DNA of 30,096 nt, from positions 1 to 30,096 of IMG/VR virus record IMGVR_UViG_3300027963_000235. One strand, 5' to 3'. The notes beneath the pieces were generated by a model. The model searched no databases and had not been told where the DNA came from. It saw only the letters and a list, made by a program, of their open reading frames with translations. The position numbers and the translations under genes were made by a program. This DNA comes from a virus. Shown here in pieces: positions 23 through 30,096 of this stretch (its first letter is position 1; each line of letters begins with the position of its first letter).

Positions 23-847
23 GTGCTTCTGATCTTTCTCTGCCTAGCGGGTGTGTCAGGCGGGCCCATTACAGCCGGCACTCGCGATCCCGAAACTCCC
101 GACGAGAAGTACGTCGAGTTTGGCAAGAAGTTCCCGTTTGTGCGCAGAATCAGGGCCGAAGAGCGCGCCCCCAAAGACCCCAAAGCTATTCATGTCTTCT
201 ACGGCTCCGCAGTGATGATTCGCCCACACTGGGTGCTCACTGCCGCGCACGTCTTAATCGACGTCGCGCAGCCCACTATTCTTGGCGACGAGCTGGATCC
301 GACAGAATACCCCATCCAGCACACGATCTCGCACCCCTTGTTTGACGACGGCAAGAACGGGTACTACGACATCGCCCTGTGCTATTCAGCGAAAGACTTG
401 GGGTTAACGTTCTATCCAGCGCTGTACACAGAGACAGACGAGCTGGGCAAAGAGGCTACTATGGCCGGCTTTGGCTTTCAGGGCACGTTTCATACGGGCA
501 TGGCAGAGCAAGACGGCAAGCGTAGGGCTGGAAGTAACAAGATTACGAGCCTAGAGCGCTCTGTCTTAGTGTGTGACCCCAGCATGTACCAGAAAACAGT
601 GCTGGAGTTCTTAATTACCCCCGGTGATTCTGGCGGCGGCTTGTTTATAGGTAACAAACTAGCTGGAATACACTCGTTTCTCATGGCCAAAGACGGCAAG
701 CCCAACGGAACGTACACAGACGAGTCGGCGCATACCCGTGTTAGTTTGTACGCGGATTGGGTAGAATCACAGATCGAGCAATACGAGCTAGCCAAGCAGG
801 CGCGGGCCACCGAAGGCCAGACGCCTATTCTCGACGCTGTACAGTGA
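23..847 (+). CDS. Trypsin-like secreted serine protease (5' end uncertain)
   Basis: This is a chymotrypsin-fold (S1-like) serine endopeptidase. Counting from the GTG at 23, the catalytic triad is visible: His76 in LTAAH, Asp116 in YDIAL and Ser203 in GDSGGG. The length of about 274 residues fits a single protease domain with a short tail. The N-terminus (LLIFLCLAGVSGG) is a hydrophobic signal-peptide core. The reading frame stays open to the left edge of the window (upstream codons give AIIILRR), so the true start may lie outside and supply the basic n-region; the GTG is only the first in-window start. The stop is 14 bp before the helicase ATG, so the two are probably co-transcribed. Inference: the protein is exported or carried in the virion, to cut host surface proteins or mature phage proteins. 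The family call is firm; the role is not. Confidence 0.88.
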   Translation: MLLIFLCLAGVSGGPITAGTRDPETPDEKYVEFGKKFPFVRRIRAEERAPKDPKAIHVFYGSAVMIRPHWVLTAAHVLIDVAQPTILGDELDPTEYPIQHTISHPLFDDGKNGYYDIALCYSAKDLGLTFYPALYTETDELGKEATMAGFGFQGTFHTGMAEQDGKRRAGSNKITSLERSVLVCDPSMYQKTVLEFLITPGDSGGGLFIGNKLAGIHSFLMAKDGKPNGTYTDESAHTRVSLYADWVESQIEQYELAKQARATEGQTPILDAVQ

Positions 848-861
848 GCGGAAACGCACCC

Positions 862-3402
862 ATGCCTGATCTGGATAAAGATATCATTGCGCAGGCGGCT
901 GGCAGTGCGTGGGAGAAGGGCGCCAAGACGTTCTATCACGGCTCAACAACGCCCGGTTTAACTACGCTGAAAGCCCAGCAGCCAAATATGGGCGGCGCTG
1001 GTGTCTACGGCACTGATAATTTGGACTGGGCTGCGCTGTACGCATTAGCCAAAGATCGCAAGGGCATGGCTGTTATTGGCGGCGCAAACCCCAAGCTGCT
1101 CATCTACAAAAACAACGCGCTGCTGCCCGAGGGCGATGTATACGAGTACGATTCTGACCAATATTCTGCGCCGCCCGAAAGCGATCCGAATCTTGGCTGG
1201 TCTGTGCCACACGATGTCACGCCCACGAAGACGCACAAAGTAAAACTCACTGACCACATGCGTAACATCGAGCAGTTTGATGACAAGGACGCACTGCGCA
1301 AACGGTTTGCTGAGTTAGCTGGCAAAGCGTGGGCAAAGCACGCTGCTGCCGATGTTCCTGTCCTCGATTCGCGAACTGCGGACATCGCCGACAAGTTTCA
1401 GCCAGACTACACGCCTGAGCAGCTTGAGAACTTGGGCGTGTACGACGCGCTGTATAGAAACCAAGGCCCCAGATTGGCTAGTCTGGGCGAGTGGAAGCCC
1501 GAGTGGGTGTCAAAGCATGACCCGAAGGGCTGGGCGCAGTGGTATAAGCGCTACTCAGCTGGCCGGCGCATCCCAGAAGAAGACGAACGGCAGATTAAGC
1601 GCTGGTCTAGCTTCAAAGCGCGACACGGCGGGCCCTTTGTGAGTAATCCAACACCACGTAGAGGCTGGGCTTTACGCAACTGGGGAATCGACCCTGCGAA
1701 ATTGGTTACTAACGACGCGCGAAATGGTGTAGTAGAGATGCTAGACGACTACCAGCGCAAAGCTATGCAGAAGTACGTGGCTGAAAAGCAAGCTGATTTG
1801 CTTCCAGAAGTCCAGTTACAACCCCACCAGCAAAGAATAGCTGACGAAGTCACAGAAGACGAGCCCCGCATGCTTGTCTATCACGGCTTGGGTAGTGGCA
1901 AGTCTCTTTCTGCATTAGCTGCCGCAGAAGCCGCCAAGAAGAAGTTCGGCGGTACTTACGGCATCGTGGCGCCTGCTAGCTTGAAGGGCAACTTCGAGAA
2001 AGAGATCAAGAAGTTCACAACTGGCTCTGATCCCGAGGTCATGAGTTATACGGGGCTGGGGCTGGGCAAGAAATTCCAAGAGCAGCCCAGCACGCTCATC
2101 ATGGACGAGGCCCATAGATTACGTAATCCCAACGCTGCTAGCTCCCAAGCCGCTGCGCAAGCTGCTGCAGCCGCTAAAAGACTCTTGCTGCTCACTGGTT
2201 CGCCTGTTACCAATGAGCCCAGCGACATGGCTAATCTCTTGTCGCTGATTCATAACAAGCAGATCACGCCTGAAGAGTTTAACAAGCAGTACGTAGGCCA
2301 GAAGACAGTGTGGCCGGGGATTATGGGCTGGCTCAGGGGCGCGCAGCCGGGTGTCAAACCAGTTGTCAAAAACGAAGCTGGCCTAAGAAAGCTTCTTGCT
2401 GGCCACGTAGACTATCAGCCCAGCAAGACACCAGAAGGCGTGAACATCAACGAGCAGACAGTGCACGTACCACTGAGTGCAGAACAGCAGAAGATCCAGA
2501 AAGCTATTCGCACGAAGATTCCGCCGGGATTCTTATGGAAGATCGACCATGAGTTCCCGCTGTCGCGCGAAGAGCTGGCCAAGCTAAACTCTTTTATGTC
2601 GGGCATGCGCCAAGTGAGTCTCTCCACGCAGCCATTCAGGGTAGACAAAGACCCGAGCAAAGCGTTTACGCAGAGCGCCAAGCTTCAAGCTGCATTTAAT
2701 AACCTGCAGAAAGAACTGCAGACAGACCCACGCAAGAAAGCCATCATCTACTCGAACTTTGTAGAGTCTGGCTTAGCCCCGTATGCCAGCGCGCTAGAGA
2801 AAGCCAAAGTCCCGCACGGGTTCTTTCATGGCGGCGTGACACCCAAGGCCCGCCAAGCCGCTGTCGATGCGTACAACGCCGGCAAGCTCAGAGCGCTCCT
2901 TATTGGCCCCGCTGGCGCCGAAGGGTTGTCGACCAAGGGCACCAGTCTTATCCAACTTTTAGACCCGCATTGGAACGAAACCCGTAGCCAGCAGGCGCGT
3001 GGTCGTGGGTTACGGTTTGACTCTCATGTTGGGCTGCCAGAGGAACTCAAGAACGTCGCGGTACAAAGATATCTAAGTAGCTCGGAAGACCCCAGTGTGT
3101 TGGGCAGGCTCATGGGCTACAAGCGCGAACGCACTGGCGACGAAGTATTGGCTCATTTAGCCAATGAAAAAGAGCAAGTCAACGAAGAATTCAGGCGTAT
3201 TCTGCGCGAAGAGGGCAGCAAGAATCACGAGCCAGAGAAGCTTGCGGCTGTATTTAACTCCATGCCGTTACAGAGCGAACGGTTGAAAGCCCGCCTGAAG
3301 AAATTGAAATTGCGCCCGAGCAATGTTAAATTGGTGGCACAAGCACCAGCTACTTCAAATGGCGGGGCTGACGACTCAACAGCCGATAAATCCAACGCGT
3401 AA
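862..3402 (+). CDS. SNF2/DEAH-type helicase with ART-like N-terminal domain
   Basis: This superfamily 2 DNA-dependent ATPase has 846 residues. The Walker A loop is HGLGSGKS near residue 341, the Walker B box is MDEAH near 415, motif III is LLLLTGSPV, and motif VI is QQARGRGLR near 710. The YHGLGSGKS form resembles helicases of large DNA viruses more than bacterial Swi2/Snf2 (DEMGLGKT). Residues 22-135 are a separate module: YHGS (His26), a short Gly-rich stretch, then GVYGTD followed by an alanine/tyrosine helix. That pattern fits the ADP-ribosyltransferase/PARP-like fold, which I infer with modest confidence. The frame could start at 757, but that would overlap the protease by 90 bp, so the ATG at 862 is preferred. 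Likely roles are transcription or chromatin-like remodelling of host DNA, replication, or packaged early action. Confidence 0.9.
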   Translation: MPDLDKDIIAQAAGSAWEKGAKTFYHGSTTPGLTTLKAQQPNMGGAGVYGTDNLDWAALYALAKDRKGMAVIGGANPKLLIYKNNALLPEGDVYEYDSDQYSAPPESDPNLGWSVPHDVTPTKTHKVKLTDHMRNIEQFDDKDALRKRFAELAGKAWAKHAAADVPVLDSRTADIADKFQPDYTPEQLENLGVYDALYRNQGPRLASLGEWKPEWVSKHDPKGWAQWYKRYSAGRRIPEEDERQIKRWSSFKARHGGPFVSNPTPRRGWALRNWGIDPAKLVTNDARNGVVEMLDDYQRKAMQKYVAEKQADLLPEVQLQPHQQRIADEVTEDEPRMLVYHGLGSGKSLSALAAAEAAKKKFGGTYGIVAPASLKGNFEKEIKKFTTGSDPEVMSYTGLGLGKKFQEQPSTLIMDEAHRLRNPNAASSQAAAQAAAAAKRLLLLTGSPVTNEPSDMANLLSLIHNKQITPEEFNKQYVGQKTVWPGIMGWLRGAQPGVKPVVKNEAGLRKLLAGHVDYQPSKTPEGVNINEQTVHVPLSAEQQKIQKAIRTKIPPGFLWKIDHEFPLSREELAKLNSFMSGMRQVSLSTQPFRVDKDPSKAFTQSAKLQAAFNNLQKELQTDPRKKAIIYSNFVESGLAPYASALEKAKVPHGFFHGGVTPKARQAAVDAYNAGKLRALLIGPAGAEGLSTKGTSLIQLLDPHWNETRSQQARGRGLRFDSHVGLPEELKNVAVQRYLSSSEDPSVLGRLMGYKRERTGDEVLAHLANEKEQVNEEFRRILREEGSKNHEPEKLAAVFNSMPLQSERLKARLKKLKLRPSNVKLVAQAPATSNGGADDSTADKSNA

Positions 3403-3421
3403 TTATTTACGGAGCTGATCT

Positions 3422-4405
3422 ATGTCCCAATCCAGTGCCATGAATAGTTCGCTCAACTATGACCTGCTGAAACAAGCGCAGGCGCATCTGAAGACAGCAG
3501 CTGAGCCGGGTTCGCTTCCGTTGGGTCGCTCACAGGTACCGAAGGCGCAGTTTGATCAGATGCGTCAGCAGCAGCTGCAGCGCAACCCGCAGCCGCAATC
3601 AATGCTGCAGAATGTGCTGGCTCAAGGTGGCGGCAATGGTTGGAAGGCTCCGGGAACGGTGCCAGCCGTGTCGTATAACACTGGCGCTGGCGCTCCTGCT
3701 GAACCAATTGCTGCCAAGCCGCCTGTGGCCACACAATCTGGGCCGAAACCGGCAAACGGTTGGCGGCAGGCGACGATGATTCCAGACATGTCAGTAACCT
3801 CTGGTAACGGCGCAGTTGCTGCCCCGAAGCCTGCGGCACCCGTCGCACCCAAACCAGTGAGCCCCGCCAATACGCAACTCGTTGCTATGCAAAAGTCGCA
3901 GCCAGAGATGCACCCGTCTGACCAAGCTAAGGCTATCTTCGCCCAAGTCAATCAGCGTCGCCGTGACGCAGCGTTTGGTCGTGGCACGTTTTCTGCCGCT
4001 GAAGAAAAGTCCATGATGGATCAGGGCAACAAGCTGCTTAACCAGAGCAACACCATGCGCAACGCGCCGGGATATAAGCCAGACGTGAAGAGCATGCACC
4101 CGCGTGACCAAGCTGACCGGCTGCGTATTCAACTCAATCAGCAACGCAGTGCAGCTGGCGGCGAAGTAGCACAGGCACCGCAAGTAATGCGTCGGCTCAA
4201 TCAGTTCAACGCCGCAGCTGACGCCATGCCAGCCCCTAAGATGCCCGGCAACATGAGGATCCCGGGCAAGCCGCAACAGATGCCCGCTGGCCCGATGCCG
4301 TCAATGCCGAAACAGCAAGATACTCCCGGCCCTATGTTTGCCAAATTGTCGGCGGCGAATCAGTTCGTTATGTTCGGCGCTTACATAGGTCAGCTGGCGC
4401 GCTAA
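3422..4405 (+). CDS. Low-complexity Pro/Gln/Ala-rich protein, probable virion protein
   Basis: I do not recognise a family. The 327-residue protein is rich in Pro, Gln, Ala and Met and looks largely disordered. It holds two copies of a degenerate repeat starting MHPSDQAKAIF and MHPRDQADRLR (about residues 163-185 and 225-247), each followed by an Asn/Gln/Arg stretch. The C-terminus (FVMFGAYIGQLAR) resembles the FGxxVG tag found at the N-termini of the proteins starting at 4571/4577, 6731 and 7565. A good Shine-Dalgarno (GGAG at 3411-3414) precedes the ATG by 7 nt. It lies 19 bp after the helicase gene and just upstream of the glycine-zipper protein, so it may belong to the same virion or injected set. 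Confidence 0.8.
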   Translation: MSQSSAMNSSLNYDLLKQAQAHLKTAAEPGSLPLGRSQVPKAQFDQMRQQQLQRNPQPQSMLQNVLAQGGGNGWKAPGTVPAVSYNTGAGAPAEPIAAKPPVATQSGPKPANGWRQATMIPDMSVTSGNGAVAAPKPAAPVAPKPVSPANTQLVAMQKSQPEMHPSDQAKAIFAQVNQRRRDAAFGRGTFSAAEEKSMMDQGNKLLNQSNTMRNAPGYKPDVKSMHPRDQADRLRIQLNQQRSAAGGEVAQAPQVMRRLNQFNAAADAMPAPKMPGNMRIPGKPQQMPAGPMPSMPKQQDTPGPMFAKLSAANQFVMFGAYIGQLAR

Positions 4406-4426
4406 TTACACAGCAGGAATTTTGCC

Positions 4427-5002
4427 ATGCCGCCGTTTAGACTACTGACAAGTCTTGGCGCTAATCTTTCGCCGGAACTTCTATTGTCTCGTCGAAAGTT
4501 AATGGAAAAAATTTTTGCGCATGTAACGGCCAGAAAAATGCAAAACGCGGTTCAAGCAACAGGTGACAGAATGGCTATGACTCCACAGCAGTTTGGCATG
4601 CACGTTGGCAAGCAAATGGGCAAGCAGGCTTTGTTCGGCCCCATTGGCGCCGGGCTGGGAGTTATCACATCGCCGGAAGGCCATCGCATGGAAGGCGCAG
4701 CTCGTGGTGCTGTCAAAGGCACGGGAGCTGGGCTAGGCGCGCTGGCTGGCACGCCGCTAGGTGTATTAGCGATGTCGCTGTTGCTCAAGGGCAGAGGCCG
4801 CAAAATCCCGCTGAGTGGAGCAGCTAACCCGATGCGCCGACCGATGCCATTTACGCAAAATCAGGTTAACAGGCAAAACTTAGGCAGAGCGTTAGCCACG
4901 CTGGGTCTTGGTGTGCCTGCCGGCGCTACTGTTGGCGGCGTGGGCGGTTATGCTGCCACGAGCGCTGTACTTGGCAAACCGAGCTGGGAAAGCACTAAAT
5001 AA
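4427..5002 (+). CDS. Glycine-zipper membrane-active protein with FG tag
   Basis: This is an unknown protein with long Gly/Ala runs (IGAGLG, GTGAGLGALAGTPLG, GATVGGVGGYAAT) typical of glycine-zipper membrane segments. Two starts compete. The ATG at 4427 (191 aa) has AGGA 8 nt upstream. The ATG at 4571 (143 aa) has AGGTGA 4 nt upstream and begins MAMTPQQFGMHVGKQMGKQA, which aligns residue for residue with the N-terminal tags of the proteins at 6731, 7565 and 8868. The 48 codons before 4571 also use codons such as AGA, CTA and CGA more than their neighbours. I therefore think 4571 (or 4577) is the real start, though the longer frame is reported. The likely role is a virion or ejected membrane-interacting protein. 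Confidence 0.75.
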   Translation: MPPFRLLTSLGANLSPELLLSRRKLMEKIFAHVTARKMQNAVQATGDRMAMTPQQFGMHVGKQMGKQALFGPIGAGLGVITSPEGHRMEGAARGAVKGTGAGLGALAGTPLGVLAMSLLLKGRGRKIPLSGAANPMRRPMPFTQNQVNRQNLGRALATLGLGVPAGATVGGVGGYAATSAVLGKPSWESTK

Positions 5003-5008
5003 TCTCTG

Positions 5009-5037
5009 CCGACTATCTTCTCCCGGCCCTGTATACT
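5009..5037 (+). promoter_or_regulatory. Putative sigma70-like promoter (A)
   Basis: CCGACT (5009-5014) and TATACT (5032-5037) are separated by exactly 17 nt in the 74-bp gap before the HEWAH metallopeptidase gene. The -10 matches TATAAT at 5 of 6 positions and is preceded by TG-like bases. The -35 keeps only the GAC core of TTGACA. The same layout (xxGACx-17-TAxxxT) recurs at 11315 and 15824, which supports it. No run of T residues or strong terminator precedes it. Confidence 0.5.
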
Positions 5038-5076
5038 AGGGGTTACTGGCACGGAAGCCACCGGGAGATTTAGAGC

Positions 5077-5430
5077 ATGGCCGCTCGATTTAGATATTAT
5101 CAGGCCCTTCTCCGCATGCTCAAACAGGACTGCCCCGCGGCATTTCCTGTGAGTGTGCGCCGTGTGAAGCTCTCCAAGCTAGAGGGCCGCTGCTGGAAAC
5201 ACGGCAAGAAGTTCCACATCCAGATTGACCGGGCGCTGGACGAAGGCCGGGCCATGGACGTGCTGATCCATGAGTGGGCGCATGCTCGGGCGTGGAACCA
5301 CATGCTGGACGAGGCCAAAGATGACGCCGCGTTCAATAAGTTAGCGCACGATCCGGCATGGGGTGTGGCGTATGCTGAGATTTACGTCCAGTATGAGCGG
5401 CATTTCACGCACGCTGCTTCAATGCAGTGA
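5077..5430 (+). CDS. Small HExxH zinc metallopeptidase-like protein
   Basis: This is a minimal zincin-type protein of 117 residues. The metal-binding helix is LIHEWAHARAWN (His65, Glu66, His69). A third ligand could be Glu101 in AYAEIY or His91 in LAHDPAWG. The N-terminal half contains short basic strands that could form the beta sheet of a stripped-down zincin. It resembles the short SprT/ImmA-like peptidases common in phages, but I cannot assign it to one family. The ATG follows GGGAG at 5062-5066, and the gene lies just after promoter A. It is followed after 6 bp by a membrane protein. The substrate is unknown; the cytoplasm is its likely site because no signal peptide is present. Confidence 0.8.
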   Translation: MAARFRYYQALLRMLKQDCPAAFPVSVRRVKLSKLEGRCWKHGKKFHIQIDRALDEGRAMDVLIHEWAHARAWNHMLDEAKDDAAFNKLAHDPAWGVAYAEIYVQYERHFTHAASMQ

Positions 5431-5436
5431 TATGCC

Positions 5437-5694
5437 ATGCAGACACCCGACACATTTAACTGGACCACGGCCGGGCTTGTATTTATCACGTACATCCTGA
5501 TCGACGTGCTCTATGCGTGGTACATCATCGCGGTGGGCAAGCGGCAGGAAGTGCAGGCAGCCGTGGCCAGCTCGCTGTTGTATAGCCTTGCGGCCTATGG
5601 CGTGCTCACATACTCGCGTAACATTGTTTACATCGCGTTTTTAGCCGCGGGGGCTTTTTTGGGCACGTACATCATTGTGAAGCTCAAGAAATGA
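5437..5694 (+). CDS. Small three-helix integral membrane protein
   Basis: The 85-residue protein is almost entirely hydrophobic. About three membrane helices can be seen: TAGLVFITYILIDVLYAW, then VASSLLYSLAAYGVLTY, then IVYIAFLAAGAFLGTYIIV, ending in the basic tail KLKK. The loop GKRQEVQ between helices 1 and 2 is short and charged. This small phage membrane protein type is widespread, but I know of no assigned function. Its stop overlaps the next start (ATGA), so the two genes are translationally coupled. Confidence 0.75.
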   Translation: MQTPDTFNWTTAGLVFITYILIDVLYAWYIIAVGKRQEVQAAVASSLLYSLAAYGVLTYSRNIVYIAFLAAGAFLGTYIIVKLKK

Positions 5695-5843
5695 CGGCCC
5701 CAAGGCCGATGTCACGGGAGAAACTCCTACAGTACGGCAAATGCTGTGGGAACAAATGTAAGAACTGCCCATATGTGCCCAAGCACAAAGCGGGCAGCAA
5801 AGAAGTCGGGGCGCCACATGCAACAAATCGTGACGGGGCATGA
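5691..5843 (+). CDS. DUF5522-like CCGNxCxNCPY mini-protein
   Basis: This 50-residue gene starts with the ATG of an ATGA overlap with the upstream membrane protein. The core, REKLLQYGKCCGNKCKNCPY, carries four cysteines arranged CC-x3-C-x2-C and followed by a proline/tyrosine pair. This is the signature I know from DUF5522-type small bacterial proteins, which are probably metal-binding. The last 26 bp overlap the start of the AlkB-like gene in another frame, so the three genes 5691-6715 look like one coupled cassette. The function is unknown. Recognition rests on the motif alone. Confidence 0.72.
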   Translation: MTAPRPMSREKLLQYGKCCGNKCKNCPYVPKHKAGSKEVGAPHATNRDGA

Positions 5844-6360
5844 GCCTATTGGCCTGCGCTTGTACGGCGAGTTTATTACGCCTACCGAAGAGCAGCACTT
5901 GATTGCGCGGTGTAGCTCAGGCGCACCCCATAACGCCCAACCCCGGGACACAAACAGGCAGAGCGTCCGGCGCTACGGCTCGGACAAGTCATACGGCTCG
6001 TACATGCTAGCCGACACTATCCCAGCCTACTTACAAGCGCTGTGCGACAGATTACTAGAAAACAAGCTCGTCAGTGTGCTGCCCGATTCTGTTTCTATTA
6101 ACGAATATTTACGGGGCCAGAGCATTGCGCTTCATATTGATAACCCCGCCAGTGGGCGCATTGTCACTGTATTGAGCGTCGAGTCACCGGCCACAATGAT
6201 ATTTGTACGGGACCAAGCGCGCTTTGCTATTGAGTTACCGCCCCGAAGTCTTGTCCAATTACATGACGAGATTCGCACTGAGTGGCAGCACGCTATCGAG
6301 CCAGTTGTGCGCCGTAGATACTCCCTTGTCTTTCGTTGCAGCTGTGACGGCCATGCTTGA
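5818..6360 (+). CDS. AlkB-like 2-oxoglutarate/Fe(II) dioxygenase
   Basis: This is a 180-residue member of the AlkB branch of 2OG-Fe(II) oxygenases, which repair alkylated bases by oxidative demethylation. The iron ligands are visible as HID (His106, Asp108) in QSIALHIDNP and His158 in EWQHAI. The 2OG-binding RxxxxxR signature is RYSLVFR (Arg167, Arg173); the Asn and Thr of the classical RxNxTxR are Ser and Val here. NEYLRG before HxD matches the family's NxY substrate-side motif. The frame is open to 5746, but the ATG at 5818 gives a normal N-terminus and only a 26-bp overlap. It is followed by an HNH nuclease with an 8-bp overlap, which suggests a nucleic-acid repair or modification unit. 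Confidence 0.88.
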   Translation: MQQIVTGHEPIGLRLYGEFITPTEEQHLIARCSSGAPHNAQPRDTNRQSVRRYGSDKSYGSYMLADTIPAYLQALCDRLLENKLVSVLPDSVSINEYLRGQSIALHIDNPASGRIVTVLSVESPATMIFVRDQARFAIELPPRSLVQLHDEIRTEWQHAIEPVVRRRYSLVFRCSCDGHA

Positions 6361-6715
6361 ATTCCTAATCAACCTGCTTCCGCTTGCGTGGCGGCCCCGG
6401 CGTATTCTGGAGTTACGCCAGCGGGCAAGCCAATGGCGCGCTATTCGGGACGAGCATTTGCTCAAAGAGCCAGCCTGTGCAGCGTGCGGTAGAACAGCCA
6501 ATTTAGAGGTCCATCACGTGATTCCAGTGGGCTTCGACGAGACAAAACAGCTGGACCCGAATAACTTAATCACCCTATGCGGCAGTCCGTGTCACATTGT
6601 GTTTGGCCACTGCATGAGTTATCATTGCTATAACAAAGATGTGCGGAAAATGGCCGCTGAATACAAAAAAGCCATGCTGAAACGTAAGTGCCTGAAGCCA
6701 CACGAGACTCGGTAA
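6353..6715 (+). CDS. HNH endonuclease
   Basis: This HNH/McrA-type nuclease has 120 residues. The structural zinc knuckle cysteines are CAACG and LCGSPCH. The catalytic strand is LEVHHVIPV, followed by DPNNLITLC, which gives the H-N-H order. The N-terminus (MLEFLINLLPLAWRPRRI) is hydrophobic and then basic. The ATG at 6353 overlaps the AlkB stop. In phages such free-standing HNH proteins can be homing enzymes or packaging-associated nucleases. Its position inside the AlkB cassette and away from terminase genes leaves the role open. Confidence 0.88.
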   Translation: MLEFLINLLPLAWRPRRILELRQRASQWRAIRDEHLLKEPACAACGRTANLEVHHVIPVGFDETKQLDPNNLITLCGSPCHIVFGHCMSYHCYNKDVRKMAAEYKKAMLKRKCLKPHETR

Positions 6716-6730
6716 CACGCGAGACACGCC

Positions 6731-7546
6731 ATGCAACCATACGAATTCGGCCAGCATGTTGGGCTGTATTTGAAGAAGCAAGCCGGCTGGGCCGAGGGCG
6801 ACTGGATTCCTAGTTGGAGCGAAACCGGTAACGCAGCGTTTGGCACCGCGCCAATGACAACGCAGGCTGTCGATCCGATGCAGCGCGGCATAGTTCAACA
6901 CGTGGCGCAGTATTCAAACCCCATTTCTGGCGTACCCACAGCCATTAACGACACGGCTCGCCATTTGTATAACGGCCGGTATTTGAGCGCGCTGGGTTCA
7001 GTGGGCGAAGGCGCACTCAGCTTTTTACCGGGGGCAGGCGGCCTTTTGAGCGGCGCTGCGACTAAGGGGCTGGCTCGGGGCGGAGCGCGACTGGCTGGCG
7101 CTGGGGCTACTACTGCCGGCAAAGCATTGACAGGTACTGCAAACGCGTTGAACAAGGGCACCAAAATTGTAACAAACGCGCAGAAATCGATGGGCGCTGG
7201 TATTCAGAAAGCCTTGCCCACCGTGGCGCCAGCGGTACCAGCCGCAACGGGTGCTGCTGGCTATGGCGCTGCGCTTCGCAATGCGCCAACAACAGCGCGC
7301 AACTTTATTGTCACGAAGCCAATTCAAGCGGCGGCCGGTGGGTTTGGTCCGGCAGATCCTCTTACTGTTGGCGCGATTGCTCGCGGCGAACATTACATGA
7401 CACCAGATATGCGCGCATATCAGCAACAGATGCAGCAACCGCAAATGCCAGCGCCGCCGGCACCGGCACCGGCACCGGCTCCAGCTCCTATGGCGCCAAA
7501 GTTGCCACCGGGGCAATTCAAACCCAAGAAGATGCTGAACTTTTAA
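6731..7546 (+). CDS. Gly/Ala-rich tagged protein, probable virion or ejected protein
   Basis: The 271-residue protein has no family that I recognise. It opens with MQPYEFGQHVGLYLKKQAGW, the clearest copy of the shared tag: Phe6, Gly7, Val10, Gly11, Lys16, Ala18, Gly19. The middle (residues 90-180) is Gly/Ala-rich with possible membrane-inserting segments such as LPGAGGLLSGAA. The C-terminus carries an (AP)n run around 7455-7492 and ends basic (KPKKMLNF). The composition suggests a protein ejected with DNA or a membrane-channel protein. It is followed 18 bp later by a paralogue-like gene with the same head. Confidence 0.78.
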   Translation: MQPYEFGQHVGLYLKKQAGWAEGDWIPSWSETGNAAFGTAPMTTQAVDPMQRGIVQHVAQYSNPISGVPTAINDTARHLYNGRYLSALGSVGEGALSFLPGAGGLLSGAATKGLARGGARLAGAGATTAGKALTGTANALNKGTKIVTNAQKSMGAGIQKALPTVAPAVPAATGAAGYGAALRNAPTTARNFIVTKPIQAAAGGFGPADPLTVGAIARGEHYMTPDMRAYQQQMQQPQMPAPPAPAPAPAPAPMAPKLPPGQFKPKKMLNF

Positions 7547-7564
7547 ATATCAGGAGCGGCAGAC

Positions 7565-8134
7565 ATGACGCCATTTGATTTTGGATATCTGGTCGGCGGG
7601 CACGAAAAGCGAGCTGGCGGTTTATTTGCTGGCCTTGGTCGCGCTGCAGGCACGGCCGGTAAGGCGCTGAGCGCTGTTAATGACGCTTCGAAGAGCGTTG
7701 TGCGCGGAGCCGGCGGCATTGTCGGCGGCGTAGGCAGCGGCATTGACGCAGTTGGTCAGGCCACTCGCGCTGTGGGGCGCGCAGGCATGTCGGCTGGTAC
7801 GCAGGCTGTGCGACCGGTGAACAAAGCGCAATTTCAGGGTATTCTGCGCGATATCGTTGGCGCACTGGGGCATACAGCGCGACTGGGCGGCAAAGCGACG
7901 CATCTCACTGGCCACGGTGTTTCTGCAGTTGGGCAGGGCATTGGCGAGCTGGGCAAGGGCATCAAGATGCTGGGCGACGCCCCGATGGGCATTCCGACTG
8001 TGGCTGCCGGTGGTTTACTGGCCGCTGGCGCCAATGTAGCCCCCAAGCTTCCGCTGCCAGATATCAAGTTTCAGTCGCCGATTGATTTCAGCGTGAAGTA
8101 CAAGACTCGTAAACCCGTTGAGTTTAAGTGGTGA
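7565..8134 (+). CDS. Gly/Ala-rich tagged protein, probable virion or ejected protein
   Basis: The 189-residue protein begins MTPFDFGYLVGGHEKRAGGL, aligning with the tag of its upstream neighbour at Phe6, Gly7, Val10, Gly11 and a Lys-Arg-Ala-Gly end. The body is built of glycine-rich heptad-like helices (GGIVGGVGSGIDAVG, GHGVSAVGQGIGELGKGIK) that could form amphipathic or glycine-zipper membrane helices. The tail (KYKTRKPVEFKW) is basic. No enzyme motif is seen. By composition and tag it belongs with the proteins at 4571, 6731 and 8868. Confidence 0.78.
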   Translation: MTPFDFGYLVGGHEKRAGGLFAGLGRAAGTAGKALSAVNDASKSVVRGAGGIVGGVGSGIDAVGQATRAVGRAGMSAGTQAVRPVNKAQFQGILRDIVGALGHTARLGGKATHLTGHGVSAVGQGIGELGKGIKMLGDAPMGIPTVAAGGLLAAGANVAPKLPLPDIKFQSPIDFSVKYKTRKPVEFKW

Positions 8135-8136
8135 CC

Positions 8137-8337
8137 ATGAGTCTGTGCTACGGCTGTCAGAGTGAGCTTACGGAACTGCGCGGGAAACTCATCTGCCCCG
8201 CCTGCCATATGATCATCGAGACATGCTGCGAAGGCGGGCGCTGTACGTATAGCGACACAACAGTAGAACGCTGGAAAGAACTGACTAAAACAAGCGCTGA
8301 AAAATACAGCGCGTGGTGTAACAAAACCGCAAACTAA
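8137..8337 (+). CDS. Small zinc-ribbon protein
   Basis: This 66-residue protein has two CxxC knuckles, CYGC near the N-terminus and CPAC about 16 residues later, followed by a further cysteine cluster (ETCCEGGRC). This is a zinc-ribbon layout, as found in small nucleic-acid-binding or adaptor proteins. Starts at GTG 8128 or 8131 are possible, but ATG 8137 gives MSLCYGC and a minimal overlap with the upstream stop (8132-8134). The function is unknown. A long hairpin follows, so this may be the end of a transcript. Confidence 0.7.
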   Translation: MSLCYGCQSELTELRGKLICPACHMIIETCCEGGRCTYSDTTVERWKELTKTSAEKYSAWCNKTAN

Positions 8338-8366
8338 AAGATTTTGAGCAGAGGTTTCGTAACACC

Positions 8367-8414
8367 TGTGACAAAACATCGGTCGTTATCGTTAATGACC
8401 TAGGTTTTGTCACA
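8367..8414 (+). promoter_or_regulatory. Long intergenic hairpin
   Basis: Two 22-nt arms (8367-8388 and 8393-8414) around a TCGT loop pair at 20 of 22 positions, with one G-U pair and two mismatches. The outer 11 bp (TGTGACAAAAC with GTTTTGTCACA) are perfect. It fills the 100-bp gap between the zinc-ribbon and cupin genes. No long T tract follows (ATTTGATT), so it is not a classical terminator. It could be an RNase III processing site, an mRNA stabiliser or a protein-binding dyad. Confidence 0.65.
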
Positions 8415-8437
8415 TTTGATTAAATAAGGAGCACTTC

Positions 8438-8851
8438 GTGGCCGAGCCCAAGCGGTTTGTTTTGAATGCCGAGCAGCGCCCCTACGCCGAACACATATGG
8501 GGCAGCGAAGATTACATCTGGAACGGGCGGTATTGCGGCAAGAAAATCAAAGTAAACAAGGGCAAAACCAGCGAGTGGGTTTACCATCGGGTGCGCGACA
8601 AGGTGCTCTATGTGGAAAAGGGCAAGATTTTATTAAGCTATGGGTGGGACGATAACGAGAGCACCGCGGCGACTTTAACCATGACGCCCGATATGGCGTT
8701 TCACATTCCTCCGGGGATGTGGCACAAGTTCCAAGGTTTAGAAGAGACACAGATTCTAGAGTTGGGCACGCACCACAGCGACAAAGACGTGCTGACGACG
8801 AACGACACAGACTCAGAAAACACACCAGACGAAGACTCCCGCCACGTTTAA
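8438..8851 (+). CDS. Cupin protein, mannose-6-phosphate isomerase type
   Basis: This 137-residue single-domain cupin starts at a GTG with AAGGAG 7 nt upstream. It matches the C-terminal cupin of type II phosphomannose isomerase in pattern: WGSEDYIW at the N-terminus, KTSEWVYHR in the position of motif 1 (normally H-x-H), VEKGKILLSYG, and DMAFHIPPGMWHKFQG as motif 2 (His in the expected place). Motif 1 has SEWVYH rather than HxH, so the metal site may be altered. Phages use such cupins in sugar-nucleotide or small-molecule pathways, but no partner gene is seen here. The acidic tail (residues 118-137) looks disordered. Confidence 0.75.
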   Translation: MAEPKRFVLNAEQRPYAEHIWGSEDYIWNGRYCGKKIKVNKGKTSEWVYHRVRDKVLYVEKGKILLSYGWDDNESTAATLTMTPDMAFHIPPGMWHKFQGLEETQILELGTHHSDKDVLTTNDTDSENTPDEDSRHV

Positions 8852-8867
8852 ATAACAGAGGACGCCC

Positions 8868-10541
8868 ATGACACCGCAAGAATTTATTGCAGCGATGGAA
8901 CAGCAGATGGCCAAGCAGGCCGGCGGCGGTATGGGAGCGCTGATTCCCGCAGCTGCCCGCGGAGCTGCCCAGCAAGCAGCGCAGCAAGCCGCGCCAAGCA
9001 TGTTGCAGCGCGGTTTGAATGCTGCTGGTCGTGGGGTGGGTATCGCGGCTGACGAGAGCCTGACAGCGCTGAATAACTTGGGCGCAGCCACGCGGCACGG
9101 TGCTGGCAAGGTTGTGGACGCCGGCAAGGACTTTGTGAACGGGTTTCGCGGCAAGGGTGCGCCAGCGCCTGACGGTACTCCGCGGCTTACTGGACCCAAC
9201 CCCGGCACGGGCATGATTCCGAGCCGCCGGGCTGATAATTTTGCGCTGCCTGTCCGACCAGCCCCGCGCACATGGGGCAACATCGGCACAGGCGCAGCAG
9301 TAGCCGGCGGTACAGCTGCTGGTTTGACATCGCTTAAGAACAAATTGTTTTACGGCAATGGTCAAGACGCCGTAGCACCAATGCCGTATCCGGTCCAGCA
9401 CTCGCCTGCTCAAGGCGGTGGCGGCCTCATGGACATGTGGAACAACCTGCCGCTTGAAGCCCGCTACGCAATTGGTGCTGGTGTTCCGCTGGCGTTGATG
9501 GGTGCGTTTGCCCATGGTGGCGGCAATTCCGGGCTGGGTATGGGTCTGGGCGCAGCTGGACTGGGTCTGGCGGGCTTGGGAGCAGCGCACGGCGGCTATC
9601 TTGGAAAGAACATGCAGGGCGGCGCGCAAAGCATCATGGACATGCTCAACGGTCGTGGCGGCATCAACGGCGGTCAAGATCCCCACTATCACGCGTATCT
9701 GCAGGGCCAGCTGAATAACAATCTGGAAAACAACAGCGTGCGTGGCGTCAAGAAGAGCAGTGACTTGCAAGCATTCGGCGCTGCGCTTGAAAAGCTCTCG
9801 GCGGGTCGGTGCTGGACGGGCTACGAGCCAGTGCCGGGCAAGGCGCCCTATAGCAACGACTCCTGCCGACCCAAGGGCAAGAAGGCTACGAAGAAGAAGA
9901 CAGAAGAGAAGACAGCCGCCAAGGATTGCGGTTGTACTTCGATGACAGAGACGCCTTCGAGCCGCGGTACGCTCAAGAAGATCAATGATGAGCAGAAGAG
10001 CACGAACAGCCCGCAGCCCGAAGATGTCGGTATGACACAGCAGAAGATGTCGCAGGCGTACTTGTTTGGAAACGCTATTGGCAAAGAAGCTGGCTTTATG
10101 GGCGATGCTGCGCGGGGTATTGGCAACTTTGCCAGTAGCGCCGGCAACTACTTGCAGCAGACTGGTAACTCCATGCAGCGGGGTTTAAATAACTTTGCTG
10201 ATAGCAGCGACCAAGCTGCCAAGAGCATGTATTACAGCGGCGCACGCATGTATAACAATGTCACACTTCCGTTCCGGCAAGCCGGCGCAGCAGTAGGTGG
10301 TTTTGGGGAGGGTTTAGTGCAGGGCGCCAAGAACATCGCCAGCATTCCGGGTCAGATTGCCGCGCTGCCGGGCCAAGCAGCTACAGCGGCTGGCAACGCT
10401 ATTCAATCTGGCGCAACTGCAGCTGGCAACGCTATCCAGTCCGGCGTAGATACTGCTCGGTCGTACATTCCCAGCGTGCGTAGCCCGTTTCACTACCCGG
10501 GCCAGCCGGGGCAGCCAGCGCAGCCGGCAGGAGCCATGTAA
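8868..10541 (+). CDS. Large Gly/Ala-rich protein with repeated tag motifs
   Basis: This 557-residue protein begins MTPQEFIAAMEQQMAKQAGG, a tag with Phe6, Lys16, Ala18 and Gly19. Similar elements recur inside it: FGAALEKLSAG at residues 303-313 and YLFGNAIGKEAGF at 398-410. Residues 205-245 form a long Gly-rich hydrophobic stretch. Residues 314-327 hold a Cys box (RCWTGYEPVPGKAPYSNDSC), followed by a Lys-rich linker and CGC. The C-terminal quarter has an 11-residue repeat (GNAIQSG) and a Pro/Gln end. An in-frame ATG at 10032 opens a unit that looks like another tagged protein, so this may be a fusion or a processed polyprotein. A virion or ejected role is inferred from the composition. Confidence 0.8.
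   Translation: MTPQEFIAAMEQQMAKQAGGGMGALIPAAARGAAQQAAQQAAPSMLQRGLNAAGRGVGIAADESLTALNNLGAATRHGAGKVVDAGKDFVNGFRGKGAPAPDGTPRLTGPNPGTGMIPSRRADNFALPVRPAPRTWGNIGTGAAVAGGTAAGLTSLKNKLFYGNGQDAVAPMPYPVQHSPAQGGGGLMDMWNNLPLEARYAIGAGVPLALMGAFAHGGGNSGLGMGLGAAGLGLAGLGAAHGGYLGKNMQGGAQSIMDMLNGRGGINGGQDPHYHAYLQGQLNNNLENNSVRGVKKSSDLQAFGAALEKLSAGRCWTGYEPVPGKAPYSNDSCRPKGKKATKKKTEEKTAAKDCGCTSMTETPSSRGTLKKINDEQKSTNSPQPEDVGMTQQKMSQAYLFGNAIGKEAGFMGDAARGIGNFASSAGNYLQQTGNSMQRGLNNFADSSDQAAKSMYYSGARMYNNVTLPFRQAGAAVGGFGEGLVQGAKNIASIPGQIAALPGQAATAAGNAIQSGATAAGNAIQSGVDTARSYIPSVRSPFHYPGQPGQPAQPAGAM
10386..10451 (+). repeat. 33-bp tandem repeat, two copies, in coding sequence
   Basis: Two adjacent 33-nt units encode AAGNAIQSGAT and AAGNAIQSGVD near the C-terminus of the 557-residue protein. 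The first eight codons of each unit are nearly identical in DNA as well, which suggests a recent duplication. Confidence 0.85.
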
Positions 10542-10599: not shown

Positions 10600-11307
10600 A
10601 TGGGCAAAAAACCGCAGACCCCGAAGGTCGCGCAGCGAGCCAAGAAACATCAAGAGAAGCAAAAACAAGAAAAGGCAGCGGTTTATCAGCCGGTTGACAT
10701 CGAATGGCGCACGTCCGGCCAGAAGCGGGCATGGGACTTACTTGGCGAGAACGATGTGAGCTTTTTATTGGGCTCAGCCGGCTCTGGCAAGACGTTCTTA
10801 GCCATGGCGTATGCGATCAACGCTATTCTGTCGCAGACCCACTCCAATATCATTCTTACTCGGCCCATTGTGGACGCTGGTGAGAAGCTTGGGTTCTTGC
10901 CGGGCACGTTCGGGGACAAAGTGAATCCCTACATGCAGCCCCTGTTTGACACGATGGACACGCTTTTGGGCAAGTTCAGCTCCAAGCGTGAAGTCATTAA
11001 CAAAGCTGTGTCATTGGCGCCGCTGTGCTACATGCGCGGGCGTACATTCAATGACGCCGTGTGTATTCTCGATGAAGCTCAGAACGCCACATACACGCAG
11101 CTGAAACTCTTCTTGTCCCGCTTTGGCCGCAATACCAAAGTGATTGTTACGGGTGACTTGCACCAGAGCGACTTGCCATTCTCGCCGGCGCCGCTTGGCG
11201 AAGTAGTGGAGAAGCTCAAGGGCACAAGCGGCATTGGCGCGATGCAGTTTAACCACGGCGACGTGGTCAGGCATCCGCTTGTCGCAGCTATCTTGAAAAA
11301 GCTGTAG
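10600..11307 (+). CDS. phoH: PhoH-like ATPase
   Basis: The 235-residue protein is a PhoH-family P-loop ATPase. The Walker A motif is GSAGSGKT at residues 58-65, after the family-typical QKRAWDLL helix. LTRPIVDAGEKLGFLPG follows, and the Walker B is VCILDEAQNAT near residue 147, then VTGDLHQSDL as sensor. The first 30 residues are a Lys/Gln-rich basic extension. PhoH proteins are common in phages; some bind or unwind RNA, but the phage role is unsettled. A 58-bp gap separates it from the upstream gene, and promoter B follows directly, so PhoH may close a transcription unit. Confidence 0.95.
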   Translation: MGKKPQTPKVAQRAKKHQEKQKQEKAAVYQPVDIEWRTSGQKRAWDLLGENDVSFLLGSAGSGKTFLAMAYAINAILSQTHSNIILTRPIVDAGEKLGFLPGTFGDKVNPYMQPLFDTMDTLLGKFSSKREVINKAVSLAPLCYMRGRTFNDAVCILDEAQNATYTQLKLFLSRFGRNTKVIVTGDLHQSDLPFSPAPLGEVVEKLKGTSGIGAMQFNHGDVVRHPLVAAILKKL

Positions 11308-12560: not shown

Positions 12561-13034
12561 ATGACGCTGAGCCAATTTCTAGAGATCATGAACGGCGACT
12601 TAGCCAACGAGTGGACGCATTTGAGCTTTTATCTCTATCACGCCAGCTCTGTTTCTGGTCTGCACGCGCACGAGTACAAAGAGTTCTTCACCAAGGCAGC
12701 AGAGGGTGAAATGGCCCACGTGCAGGCGTTTTTAGACCGGCTTCTGGGTCTGAATTACGCACAGCCGTGTCAGGGGCCAAAGCCGTTTGCGTATGCTGCC
12801 CGCGTTGAAGATATCTTAACGCTGGCCATCAAGCTTGAAGAGGACGTGGTCACGAACTACACGTATCGGCTGAAACAGTTAGACGATTTAGGTATTGCGC
12901 ACCCTGAGACAGCCGCGTATCTCAAGGTGTTCTACGAAGACCAGATCCAAGACAGCTACGAGGATTGCGAGCACATGCGCCGGCTGGTAGCGTACAGCGT
13001 GAGTAGCTTAGAGCCGCAGAAACGTGGCGACTGA
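12561..13034 (+). CDS. Ferritin-like diiron protein (bacterioferritin type)
   Basis: This 157-residue four-helix ferritin-like protein has carboxylates at bacterioferritin-like spacing: Glu17 (ANEWTH), Glu50 and His53 (EGEMAH), Glu93/Glu94 (KLEED) and Glu126/Asp127 (YEDQIQD). The second ExxH motif of bacterioferritin is not conserved; Gln or Ile stands in place of His, so one iron site may be altered. The length is right for a full ferritin subunit. The family stores iron or detoxifies H2O2 with Fe(II). In a phage it could protect DNA from oxidative damage, or it could be an unrelated diiron enzyme. The ATG has AAAGGAA upstream. Confidence 0.82.
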   Translation: MTLSQFLEIMNGDLANEWTHLSFYLYHASSVSGLHAHEYKEFFTKAAEGEMAHVQAFLDRLLGLNYAQPCQGPKPFAYAARVEDILTLAIKLEEDVVTNYTYRLKQLDDLGIAHPETAAYLKVFYEDQIQDSYEDCEHMRRLVAYSVSSLEPQKRGD

Positions 13035-17235: not shown

Positions 17236-17307
17236 TGCCTGATAGCTCAACGGTAGAGCGAGCGGCTGTTAACCGCTAGGTTCTAGGTTCGAATCCTAGT
17301 CAGGCAG
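17236..17307 (+). tRNA. tRNA-Asn (anticodon GTT)
   Basis: The 72-nt gene folds into a complete cloverleaf. The acceptor stem is TGCCTGA/TCAGGCA, the D stem is GCTC/GAGC, the anticodon stem is AGCGG/CCGCT with loop CTGTTAA (anticodon GTT), the variable loop is AGGTT, and the T arm is CTAGG-TTCGAAT-CCTAG. The discriminator base is G and no CCA is encoded. It lies 6 bp after the tiny secreted protein gene and 17 bp before the next gene, so it is probably cut from an mRNA. Confidence 0.97.
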
Positions 17308-17324
17308 CGCACACGGAGAAAGCA

Positions 17325-26614: not shown

Positions 26615-29600
26615 ATGCCAACGCCTGAGCTACCGCCGCTTGTTAATACGTCGCAGTCTCCGACCCCAACGATGCGGGCCTTCGGAGACATTTCGGGCAT
26701 GCGTAAAAATATCTTTGATCAGGCTCTGACTAGCGCGCAAACTATCAAGCCGCTACAGAACGATCTGTACACGCTGAATCTGACTGACGCGAACTACGCC
26801 GGTCCAGAGGTGTATACCCGAGCGGATCAAAAGCGCGCTGTTCTCACCCGCGGCTCGCTCTCGCGTAAGTTGCAGGGCACATGGTCATTGGTAGATAACA
26901 AAACCGGCCAAGTTGTCGGGCAGAAGAATGCGACGATTGCGCATGTGCCGTATCTCACCGACTCCGGCACGTTTGTAAACAAAGGCGTTGAATACACGCT
27001 CGCCCACCAAATGCGTTTGCGGCCGGGCGTGTTTACTCGCGAGAAAGACAACGGCGAAATCGAAGCGCACGTGAATACGCTTCCCGGCAAGGGCCGCTCG
27101 CACCGGTATTTTCTCGACCCCAAGACCGGCGTGTTCAAGATCAATATCGGGCAGGCACAGATTCCGCTGATGCCGGTGCTCAAGAGCATGGGCGTCACGG
27201 ACCAACAGCTCCGCGAACATTGGGGCAACGACATCACCGCCGTAAACATGGCGAAGGGCGACGCCGGCACACTGGATAAGCTGTATCAAAGAATAGCTAA
27301 CAAGATTGACCTGAACGCCGACAACATTGCAAAACAACAGGCTATTCAAGAAGCGTTTGCCAAGGTTGAGTTAGATCCTGAAGTCACGCATCGCACTCTG
27401 GGTGCCGGGCATAAAAATATCAATGCTGAAACGATGCTGGCGATCACCAAGAAACTCTTGGCTGTAAATCGTCGCGAAGCTGACCCGGACGACCGAGACA
27501 ACATGGTGTTCCAGTCAATTGCGGGGCCGGAAGATCTTATTGCAGAACGGTTTGGCAAAGATAGGCAAGGTTTGAACAAGCTTCTCTGGCGCGCCACTGC
27601 AAAGAAATCCATCGACCACATCCCGAGCGGCGTATTTGACAAGGCTATTTCGAGCGCGCTCATTGGTTCTGGTCTTGGTTCAAGCTTGGAAGAAATCAAC
27701 CCGGCTGAAATTTTTGACCATCAGACCCGCGTGACGCGCATGGGCGAAGGCGGTATTTCATCGCTCGACGCCGTGCCGGCTGAGTCGCGCAGCGTACAAC
27801 CCAGCCATCTAGGTTACATCGACTACCTGCGCACTCCCGAATCTGGCAAAGTCGGCGTGGACATGCGGTTTGCCCGTGGCGCAATGAAGGGCGCTGACGG
27901 CAGAATTTATACGCCGGTTATCGACATGAAGACCGGAGAAACAACGCATAAGACACCGCAAGAACTAGCTGATACACCGTTGGCCTTTCCGGGCGAAGAA
28001 AACAACAAGCTGCCAGTAGTCGCCGCGCTTGTTGGCGGCAAGATTAAGTATGTGCCGCGCAAAGAAGTGCAGTACAGCTTGCCGCATATGGACTCGGCGT
28101 TCTCGTCGCTGTCTAACATGGTGCCGCTCAAGTTCATGATGAAGGGCCATCGCGTCATCATGGGTTCGCGCATGTTTACGCAGGCGTTACCGCTCGTTGG
28201 TGCCGAAGCGCCGTTTGTGCAGTCTGCCGTGGCCGATAAACCGGGCACATCACATGAAGACGAAATGGGTGAGCGGCTTGGCGCTACGCGGTCTGATATT
28301 CACGGCCAAGTAGTTTCCGTGTCGCCAGACGGTATTGTGGTACGTGATCGCGACGGCAACAAGAAAACCGTCGAACTGTACAACGACATGCCGTACAACC
28401 GGAAGACGTTTTTACATCAGACGCCAATGGTACAGCCGGGCGATGTCATTAAGCCCGGGCAACTGCTGGCGCGCTCTAATTTTACAGACAGCAATGGCTC
28501 GGCCGCGCTAGGTTTAAATATGCGCGTGGGTTATCTGCCATTCAGGGGCAAGAACTACGAAGACGCTACGGTGATCTCCGAGTCTGCGGCCAAGCGTTTA
28601 ACGTCTGAGCACATGTATCAGCATGAAGCCGAGTGGGACGACAACACGCACGTCGGCAAGCGCGCATTCGTGAGTTTGTTTCCCGGCCAGTACGAGAAGA
28701 AGCTTTTAGATAACTTTGATGACCAAGGCGCGATCAAGAAGGGCATGACCGTCAACTTCGGTGACCCGCTTGTGCTCGTGGCTAAGAAAAAAGACACGGT
28801 GTACGGCAAAGTGCATCGTGGTCGTGCCGGCAGCTTTACCAACGAAACAGTGACATGGGATCATCATGCGCCCGGTATTGTGACCGACGTTGAGCACACA
28901 TCCAAGGGCGTCAGCGTTGTCGTCAAGAATCAAGCACCGATGGAAGTTGGCGACAAGCTCACAGGTCGATTTGGCGACAAGGGTGTAATTTCTGATATTG
29001 TCCCAGATCATCAGATGCCGCACGACAAAGACGGCAACCCCATGGAAGTGCTGGTCAGTCCGCTGGGCCTGATCTCGCGCGTGAATCCGTCTCAAGTTAT
29101 CGAAACCGCACTAGGCAAAGTAGCCGCCAAAACTGGCCAGCCGTACAAGGTTAAAGATTTCGATAACGACACAGATATGGTCGAGTTTGCGCAGAAAGAA
29201 CTCGCCAAGCACGGGCTGAATGACACCGAGGATTTATTTGACCCTGAGACTGGCCGCAAGATTGGCAACGTGCTCACTGGTAATAGATTCTTTATGAAGC
29301 TGCACCACACAGCTGAGTCCAAAGGGCAGGGGCGCTCTACCGGCGGTTACACAGCGGAAGGCACGCCGGCCAAGGGCGGTTCAGAAGGCGCGAAGCGCGT
29401 GGGCATGCTTGATCTGGGCGCGCTGTTGTCTCACGGCGCCGGCAAAGTCATTCGCGACGCCAAAATGGTGCGCGGTCAAGCGAACCCAGAGTATTGGTCG
29501 CAGTTCATGGCCGGTTATGACGCCCCGCTGCCCAAGATCCCGCACGTTTATGAAAAGTTCGTCAACCAGCTCAAGGGCTCTGGGATTAACGTCACGCGCA

Positions 29601-30096
29601 CTGGTACGAAGACGAATATCATGGCCCTGCACGACAAAGACGTCGATCAGCTAGCCGGTAACCGCGAGATCCAGAATGCCGAAACGGTGGATTGGAAAGG
29701 CCGGATGAAGCCAGTCGCCGGCGGCCTTTTTGACGAGACGCTTACGGGTGGCCACGGCGGCAATCGCTGGTCAAAGATAACATTACACGAGCCGATGCCT
29801 AACCCGATCATGGAAGATCCTATTCGTCGGGTTTTGGGGCTGACAGAGAAACAGTTTCGCGGTGTTCTTGCTGGCCAAGAAAAGCTGTACGACGCTACTG
29901 GCCCGCAAGCTATTTCAGACGCGCTGGCGAAGATCAATCTTCCCAAAGCTATTGAGCAGGCGCGCGAAGACATCAAATCGGGCCGTGCCGTTCAGCGCGA
30001 TGCCGCTGTGCGTAAGCTGGGATATTTAAAGAGCGCTGAGCGTATTGGCGTGCATCCCAAAGACTGGATGCTGACCAAGATACCAGTCATTCCGCC
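26615..30096 (+). CDS. Fused beta-beta' DNA-dependent RNA polymerase (3' end outside)
   Basis: This is a multisubunit-type RNA polymerase, read as about 1160 residues without a stop. The beta part has TDSGTFVNKGVEYTL, a fork/rifampicin region at residues 350-378 (SSLEEINPAEIFDHQTR), GKNYEDATVISE (residues 645-656), and the active-site lysines in GDKLTGRFGDKG (Lys781 and Lys789, spaced as in E. coli 1065/1073). From about residue 1016 the sequence passes without a break into a beta'-like N-terminus (AGGLFDETLTGG ... WMLTKIPVIPP). Natural beta-beta' fusions are known in some bacteria; in a phage this is notable. No beta' zinc-ribbon cysteines are seen. The start codon lies 3 bp after the upstream stop. 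Confidence 0.95.
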   Translation, partial: MPTPELPPLVNTSQSPTPTMRAFGDISGMRKNIFDQALTSAQTIKPLQNDLYTLNLTDANYAGPEVYTRADQKRAVLTRGSLSRKLQGTWSLVDNKTGQVVGQKNATIAHVPYLTDSGTFVNKGVEYTLAHQMRLRPGVFTREKDNGEIEAHVNTLPGKGRSHRYFLDPKTGVFKINIGQAQIPLMPVLKSMGVTDQQLREHWGNDITAVNMAKGDAGTLDKLYQRIANKIDLNADNIAKQQAIQEAFAKVELDPEVTHRTLGAGHKNINAETMLAITKKLLAVNRREADPDDRDNMVFQSIAGPEDLIAERFGKDRQGLNKLLWRATAKKSIDHIPSGVFDKAISSALIGSGLGSSLEEINPAEIFDHQTRVTRMGEGGISSLDAVPAESRSVQPSHLGYIDYLRTPESGKVGVDMRFARGAMKGADGRIYTPVIDMKTGETTHKTPQELADTPLAFPGEENNKLPVVAALVGGKIKYVPRKEVQYSLPHMDSAFSSLSNMVPLKFMMKGHRVIMGSRMFTQALPLVGAEAPFVQSAVADKPGTSHEDEMGERLGATRSDIHGQVVSVSPDGIVVRDRDGNKKTVELYNDMPYNRKTFLHQTPMVQPGDVIKPGQLLARSNFTDSNGSAALGLNMRVGYLPFRGKNYEDATVISESAAKRLTSEHMYQHEAEWDDNTHVGKRAFVSLFPGQYEKKLLDNFDDQGAIKKGMTVNFGDPLVLVAKKKDTVYGKVHRGRAGSFTNETVTWDHHAPGIVTDVEHTSKGVSVVVKNQAPMEVGDKLTGRFGDKGVISDIVPDHQMPHDKDGNPMEVLVSPLGLISRVNPSQVIETALGKVAAKTGQPYKVKDFDNDTDMVEFAQKELAKHGLNDTEDLFDPETGRKIGNVLTGNRFFMKLHHTAESKGQGRSTGGYTAEGTPAKGGSEGAKRVGMLDLGALLSHGAGKVIRDAKMVRGQANPEYWSQFMAGYDAPLPKIPHVYEKFVNQLKGSGINVTRTGTKTNIMALHDKDVDQLAGNREIQNAETVDWKGRMKPVAGGLFDETLTGGHGGNRWSKITLHEPMPNPIMEDPIRRVLGLTEKQFRGVLAGQEKLYDATGPQAISDALAKINLPKAIEQAREDIKSGRAVQRDAAVRKLGYLKSAERIGVHPKDWMLTKIPVIP

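Follow-up and report, generated by a model that had tools for sequence, protein, structure and literature searches.

A shared tag ending in K-x-A, probably a capsid-targeting propeptide of head cargo proteins, in a fragment of an uncultivated tailed phage

Why would several genes lying close together in a phage encode proteins that share one short stretch of residues and then differ? The question is raised by a window of 30,096 bases, the complete IMG/VR record IMGVR_UViG_3300027963_000235, which is a fragment of an uncultivated tailed phage. Our analysis points to the shared stretch, referred to here as the tag, being probably a T4-like capsid-targeting propeptide of internal head (cargo) proteins that is cut after K-x-A by the prohead protease. 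MQPYEFGQHVGLYLKKQA (6731-6784) and MTPFDFGYLVGGHEKRA (7565-7615) open their genes and have in common the pattern M-x-P-[YF]-[ED]-F-G-x-x-V-G...K-x-A. A preliminary description of the window had four proteins beginning with the tag, which holds for these two. The copy at 4577 corresponds to residues 51-68 of the product of a gene starting at 4427, and is internal because the residues preceding it (LSRRKL.EKI..HV..RK.QN..QATGDRM) are conserved among relatives; MTPQEFIAAMEQQMAKQA at 8868 is degenerate, fitting the pattern loosely and lacking F-G and both glycines, and its orthologues bear the canonical tag (MTPYEFGQLTGAMEKDA, MNAYEFGQHIGGHEKEA). No tagged protein had a match in Pfam or PHROGs.

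The window being a fragment, the genome-wide search for the tag was run on relatives. The PhoH gene at 10600-11307 served as a lead to 80 related loci, several records of about 200 kb among them, and six relatives of 193.8-200 kb each (G004, G006, G009, G013, G015 and G017) were retrieved mostly or wholly, the last 3-5 kb of G004, G009 and G013 lying outside the retrieved sequence; their genes were called with a simple script. The relatives mostly have three or four canonical tags in neighbouring genes of a single cluster (two strict matches in G013), and the tag profile found no canonical copy outside this cluster in the ~200 kb records. Within residues 1-75 of the 1515 proteins of seven proteomes, the strict pattern matched 23 times, compared with 0.075 matches in shuffles, and the six matches at deeper positions all fall in a single unrelated, conserved stretch of what is probably an RNA polymerase beta-prime protein. 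The profile, which was trained on these tags, gave 18-36 bits on them and at most 4.5 on reversed proteins. A scan of a viral contig collection with a DNA pattern returned 19 stretches, all from this phage group except about four short chance frames.

As far as the sequences go, the shared tag is real and is a unit independent of the bodies that follow it. Profile-profile comparison with the tag included scored 97.6% for the 7565 and 6731 families and 93.2% for the 7565 and 8868 families, and once the tag was removed no convincing relation between the bodies was left. Conservation over residues 1-20 is 56-58% in the 6731 and 7565 families, compared to 37-49% in the segments just after, and later parts of the 7565 family are even more conserved than its first 20 residues. 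P3, Y4, F6, G7 and G11 are invariant in one of these two families and M1, F6, G7, G11, E14 and K15 in the other; F6, G7 and G11 are thus invariant in both, where the bodies are just 30-59% identical. In one relative (L002) the tag runs straight into the middle domain of the 8868 protein, and in another (L005) into the Cys/Trp module.

The K-x-A at the end of the tag turned out to be a signature of the head-gene blocks. In the head and RNA-polymerase block of G004, EK.A heads the list of enriched xx.x patterns (19 occurrences compared to 3.4 expected from shuffling). It is found 7 times compared to 1.0 in the tag block, partly because the tags themselves contain it, and is at or near expectation in the other blocks apart from the tail block, where it is slightly in excess. 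K-x-A is likewise enriched in the head blocks of another five relatives and in those of Salmonella phage Arash and Vibrio phage D69; for Arash, tested by block, it is the head block that has the strong excess. In each of the 32 loci examined around homologues of the predicted protease described below, K.A or an extension of it (EK.A, K.AA, K.AS, K.AE) ranks among the most enriched patterns. The same scan on T4 head proteins ranked I.E, the known gp21 motif, first and gave no K.A excess; a second positive control, on five proteins of phiKZ, was uninformative, showing no signal. Enrichment restricted to N-termini over whole genomes yielded noise, and the signal emerged once head-gene blocks were analysed separately. 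The aggregate site logo, [ML]-E-K-[QE]-A-[SEA], matches the tag end, [LM]-E-K-x-A.

The tags themselves contain this site. A matrix trained solely on distant clades scored the tag site above any other K-x-A in 36 of 44 tagged proteins, and in three of the four window proteins the tag holds the only K-x-A. Downstream of the tag, the 7565 family has fewer K-x-A than expected (1 compared to 11.7) and so does the 6731 family (5 compared to 13.7), with no depletion of A-x-K in either. In the 8868 family K-x-A is depleted overall and [EQ]K.A is in excess, a combination that the use of some internal sites would produce. Each of the 22 distinct N-termini found for the major capsid protein holds one K-x-A, at a fixed place relative to a conserved arm. 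The residue after K-x-A can be A, I, L or G; cleavage at an Ala-Gly junction, as first suggested, is therefore too narrow, and the predicted cut follows K-x-A with or without a glycine.

A candidate for the enzyme lies in the head block next to the scaffold-like and capsid genes (3061-4521 in G004; homologues Arash gp222 and D69 VPHD69_0270). Homologues fetched from 80 contigs gave a 39-sequence alignment, with 22-90% identity to the G004 protein, in which H103 and S164, candidates for the active-site His and Ser, are invariant. The AlphaFold model of the G004 protein (pLDDT 79) matched annotated prohead proteases among predicted viral structures with E values of about 3e-6 and weaker, from which we infer that it is the prohead protease; the K-x-A signature around its gene suggests that its specificity would be for K-x-A. 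We found no mention of a K-x-A prohead cleavage site in a literature search whose coverage left out most subscription papers.

In the mechanism we propose, a short helix with [YFQ]-x-F-G-x-x-x-G would be the targeting part, recruiting each cargo protein to the core of the assembling prohead, and the prohead protease would cut after the Ala of the adjoining [LM]-E-K-x-A, freeing a mature basic, Gly/Ala-rich protein inside the head, to be packaged and ejected. By the same rule, the major capsid protein would be trimmed near residue 27, the scaffold and core proteins would be cut at several K-x-A, and the 8868 product would come apart into its modules. The internal tag of the 4427 gene may, for instance, belong to a longer propeptide of about 68 residues. 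T4 internal proteins have targeting propeptides of 10-19 residues that gp21 removes after L/I-x-E (PMC9026906). Compared with the targeting sequences of IPI, IPII and IPIII, read from the T4 record, the tag is likewise a short N-terminal stretch common to small basic proteins with differing bodies (apart from its one internal and one degenerate copy), has aromatics in its targeting part (positions 4 and 6, compared to 4 and 7 in T4) and ends in a P3-x-P1 type site. In contrast to T4, this site is K-x-A and not L/I-x-E, for which reason we do not class the tag as a T4 capsid-targeting sequence but only as something that would work like one; it further differs in its F-G-x-x-x-G signature, its internal copy and the tag-like copies between modules, and capsid targeting by it is a prediction. 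The T4-like targeting and processing signal of the preliminary description thus largely stands, in view of the predicted protease, the K-x-A enrichment centred on head blocks in a deep clade of phages, the fixed K-x-A of the capsid protein and the depletion in two body families, with a different cut rule and one tag displaced from the N-terminus.

Several observations weigh against this reading. The K-x-A depletion is not significant in the 4427-gene family, one of the four tags is internal and another degenerate, and some K-x-A sit within the protease domain itself. The PHROG of the predicted protease has no function assigned. Its assemblin-type fold (that of the HK97/T4/herpesvirus assemblin superfamily) was recovered in matches to predicted structures, whereas against the PDB the G004 model gave no significant match, the herpesvirus proteases, which share the prohead-protease fold, appearing at probability 0.4-0.6. 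Homologous sequences are not independent, and the shuffle statistics in this analysis are consequently overstated. Lastly, the coverage column published for Arash gives 100% for Gp221, Gp223 and Gp224, proteins with an N-terminal K-x-A, which taken literally would leave their N-termini in place; we give this little weight, since proteins with two peptides are also listed at 100% (PMC10585845).

It is possible, if unlikely, that the tag is instead a permanent docking motif (to RNA polymerase, portal or scaffold, for example) kept on the mature protein, with K-x-A as a binding motif of head proteins. Enrichment alone cannot separate binding from cutting, tag-like copies are also found inside proteins, and the Arash coverage, if literal, would fit as well. 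Docking does not readily explain, however, why the bodies of two tagged families are poor in K-x-A, or why K-x-A stands at one set position ahead of the conserved capsid arm, occurs several times in scaffold-like proteins, bounds modules and is accompanied by the protease gene in all loci examined. Far less probable, in our opinion, is that the tag is a relic of gene duplication, in which old paralogues diverged in their bodies and stayed alike at the N-terminus. The closeness of the tagged genes in one cluster and the similar basic, Gly/Ala-rich composition of the bodies would agree with this, but the bodies have no convincing relation after tag removal, the tag is joined to differing body start points in relatives, and F6, G7 and G11 are invariant despite the divergence of the bodies; and even on this reading, retention of the tag would need a function.

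We find least credible the idea that the tags are cut after Lys by the trypsin-like protease encoded at one end of the window rather than by the prohead protease. Trypsin-type enzymes often cut after Lys or Arg, the protein has a Pfam Trypsin match, and all five close relatives tested have its gene along with the tag. It is nevertheless a poor candidate, because the gene was not found in seven of eight distant records, and those of them tested bear the K-x-A signature; its hydrophobic start moreover suggests export from the cytoplasm. The capsid-targeting propeptide cut by the prohead protease remains our preferred explanation of the tag.

The proteins carrying the tag had been described as membrane-active in look, for which hydropathy offers little: each has at most one hydrophobic stretch and two of the four have none. 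All four bodies are basic (+10 to +17) and Gly/Ala-rich, which brings them closer to the basic internal proteins of T4 than to membrane-active ones. An AlphaFold model of the 7565 protein was poor (pLDDT 48); its helix at residues 3-17 is suggestive at most, and the model was not used for fold searches. The K-x-A sites of the 8868 protein, which may be cut into pieces, lie at its tag, behind the Cys/Trp module (EEKTA) and in the second of two internal tag-like stretches missed in the preliminary description, of which DLQAFGAALEKLSAG is a weaker match than QAYLFGNAIGKEAG. The features of the window that bear on the tag are collected in Table 1.

Table 1. Tag copies, tagged genes and related features of the window.
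Feature	Position	Strand	Remarks
Trypsin-like protease gene	23-847		Pfam Trypsin match; hydrophobic start
Tagged gene 1 (191 aa)	4427..5002	+	Starts upstream of the tag; pre-tag residues kept in relatives
Tag copy 1, internal, MTPQQFGMHVGKQMGKQA	4577..4630	+	Only K-x-A of the protein
Tagged gene 2 (271 aa)	6731..7546	+	Body basic and Gly/Ala-rich
Tag copy 2, MQPYEFGQHVGLYLKKQA	6731..6784	+	Only K-x-A of the protein
Tagged gene 3 (189 aa)	7565..8134	+	Body basic and Gly/Ala-rich
Tag copy 3, MTPFDFGYLVGGHEKRA	7565..7615	+	Only K-x-A of the protein
Tagged gene 4 (557 aa), made of modules and perhaps like a polyprotein	8868..10541	+	In relatives the modules form genes of their own, joined in other ways
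Tag copy 4, degenerate, MTPQEFIAAMEQQMAKQA	8868..8921	+	Orthologues have the canonical tag; K-x-A retained
Tag-like stretch before Cys/Trp module, DLQAFGAALEKLSAG	9762..9806	+	K-x-A spoiled (KLSA), intact in most relatives
Cys/Trp module, RCWTGYEPVPG...EEKTA	9807..9917	+	K-x-A at its bounds in most relatives
Second internal tag-like stretch in the 8868 product, QAYLFGNAIGKEAG	10053..10094	+
RNA polymerase beta subunit, cut by window end	26615..30094	+	Arash homologue is the most-detected virion protein

The Cys/Trp module at 9807-9917 (RCW-x-GYEPVPG-x-x-PYS-x-x-SCRP, then a Lys-rich run) had no match in Pfam or PHROG; it is N-terminal, internal or C-terminal in many related proteins, where K-x-A-(G)-R almost always precedes it. 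The protein encoded at 25047-25403 starts with MDVNEKEAFKLGFLYRCAEE, conserved in relatives, in which EKxA stands beside an AF-x-x-GF stretch, perhaps a diverged tag. The C-terminus of the 3422-4405 product, QFVMFGAYIGQLAR, is tag-like without K-x-A, its profile score of 2.1 bits being not above the reversed control. Elsewhere in the window are genes for a ferritin-like protein (12561-13034), an actin-like protein (14770-15804; Pfam Volactin PF25216, E 7.8e-63) and a Matrixin-type metallopeptidase with a peptidoglycan-binding domain (21011-21838), and a single tRNA-Asn gene (17236-17308).

Arash and D69 share with this group homologues of the RNA polymerase, capsid protein and protease (and, for Arash, a helicase) as well as the K-x-A signature of the head block; they differ in that the tag profile found no convincing F-G-x-x-x-G copy in Arash or in the part of D69 searched. 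The RNA polymerase beta subunit of the window is homologous to Gp206, the most-detected protein of Arash virions (PMC10585845), which suggests that the region encodes head cargo. Near-identical N-termini have been described on the diverged ejection proteins gp53 and gp54 in the SPN3US/phiKZ group (PMC5694885; PMC10052503). These phiKZ-type giants (SPN3US and phiKZ, with prohead protease gp245/gp175) likewise package an RNA polymerase and have head proteins with propeptides, but their protease cuts at A-x-E or S/A/G-x-E, after the Glu, and their propeptides are for the most part longer than 100 residues. In phage P1, a 30-residue N-terminal signal of DarB suffices to carry a reporter into the head (PMC9024508); that signal was shown on one large protein, and we liken the tag to it by description and not by sequence.

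These observations lead us to a broader proposal, to which we would give about even chances: that in a large, mostly uncultivated clade of phages with a packaged multisubunit RNA polymerase, the prohead protease cuts after the Ala of [ML]-E-K-x-A instead of after Glu, and that one branch of this clade evolved a portable capsid-loading tag that new cargo can acquire and that is also placed between the modules of a polyprotein-like cargo protein. If this is true, the cleavage rule of a whole head-assembly system would be readable from genomes, and the N-termini that capsid, scaffold and cargo proteins have when mature would be predictable in many uncultivated phages. The rule would also flag which proteins of unassigned role ride inside the head, and another short capsid-loading tag would take its place beside those of T4 and P1.

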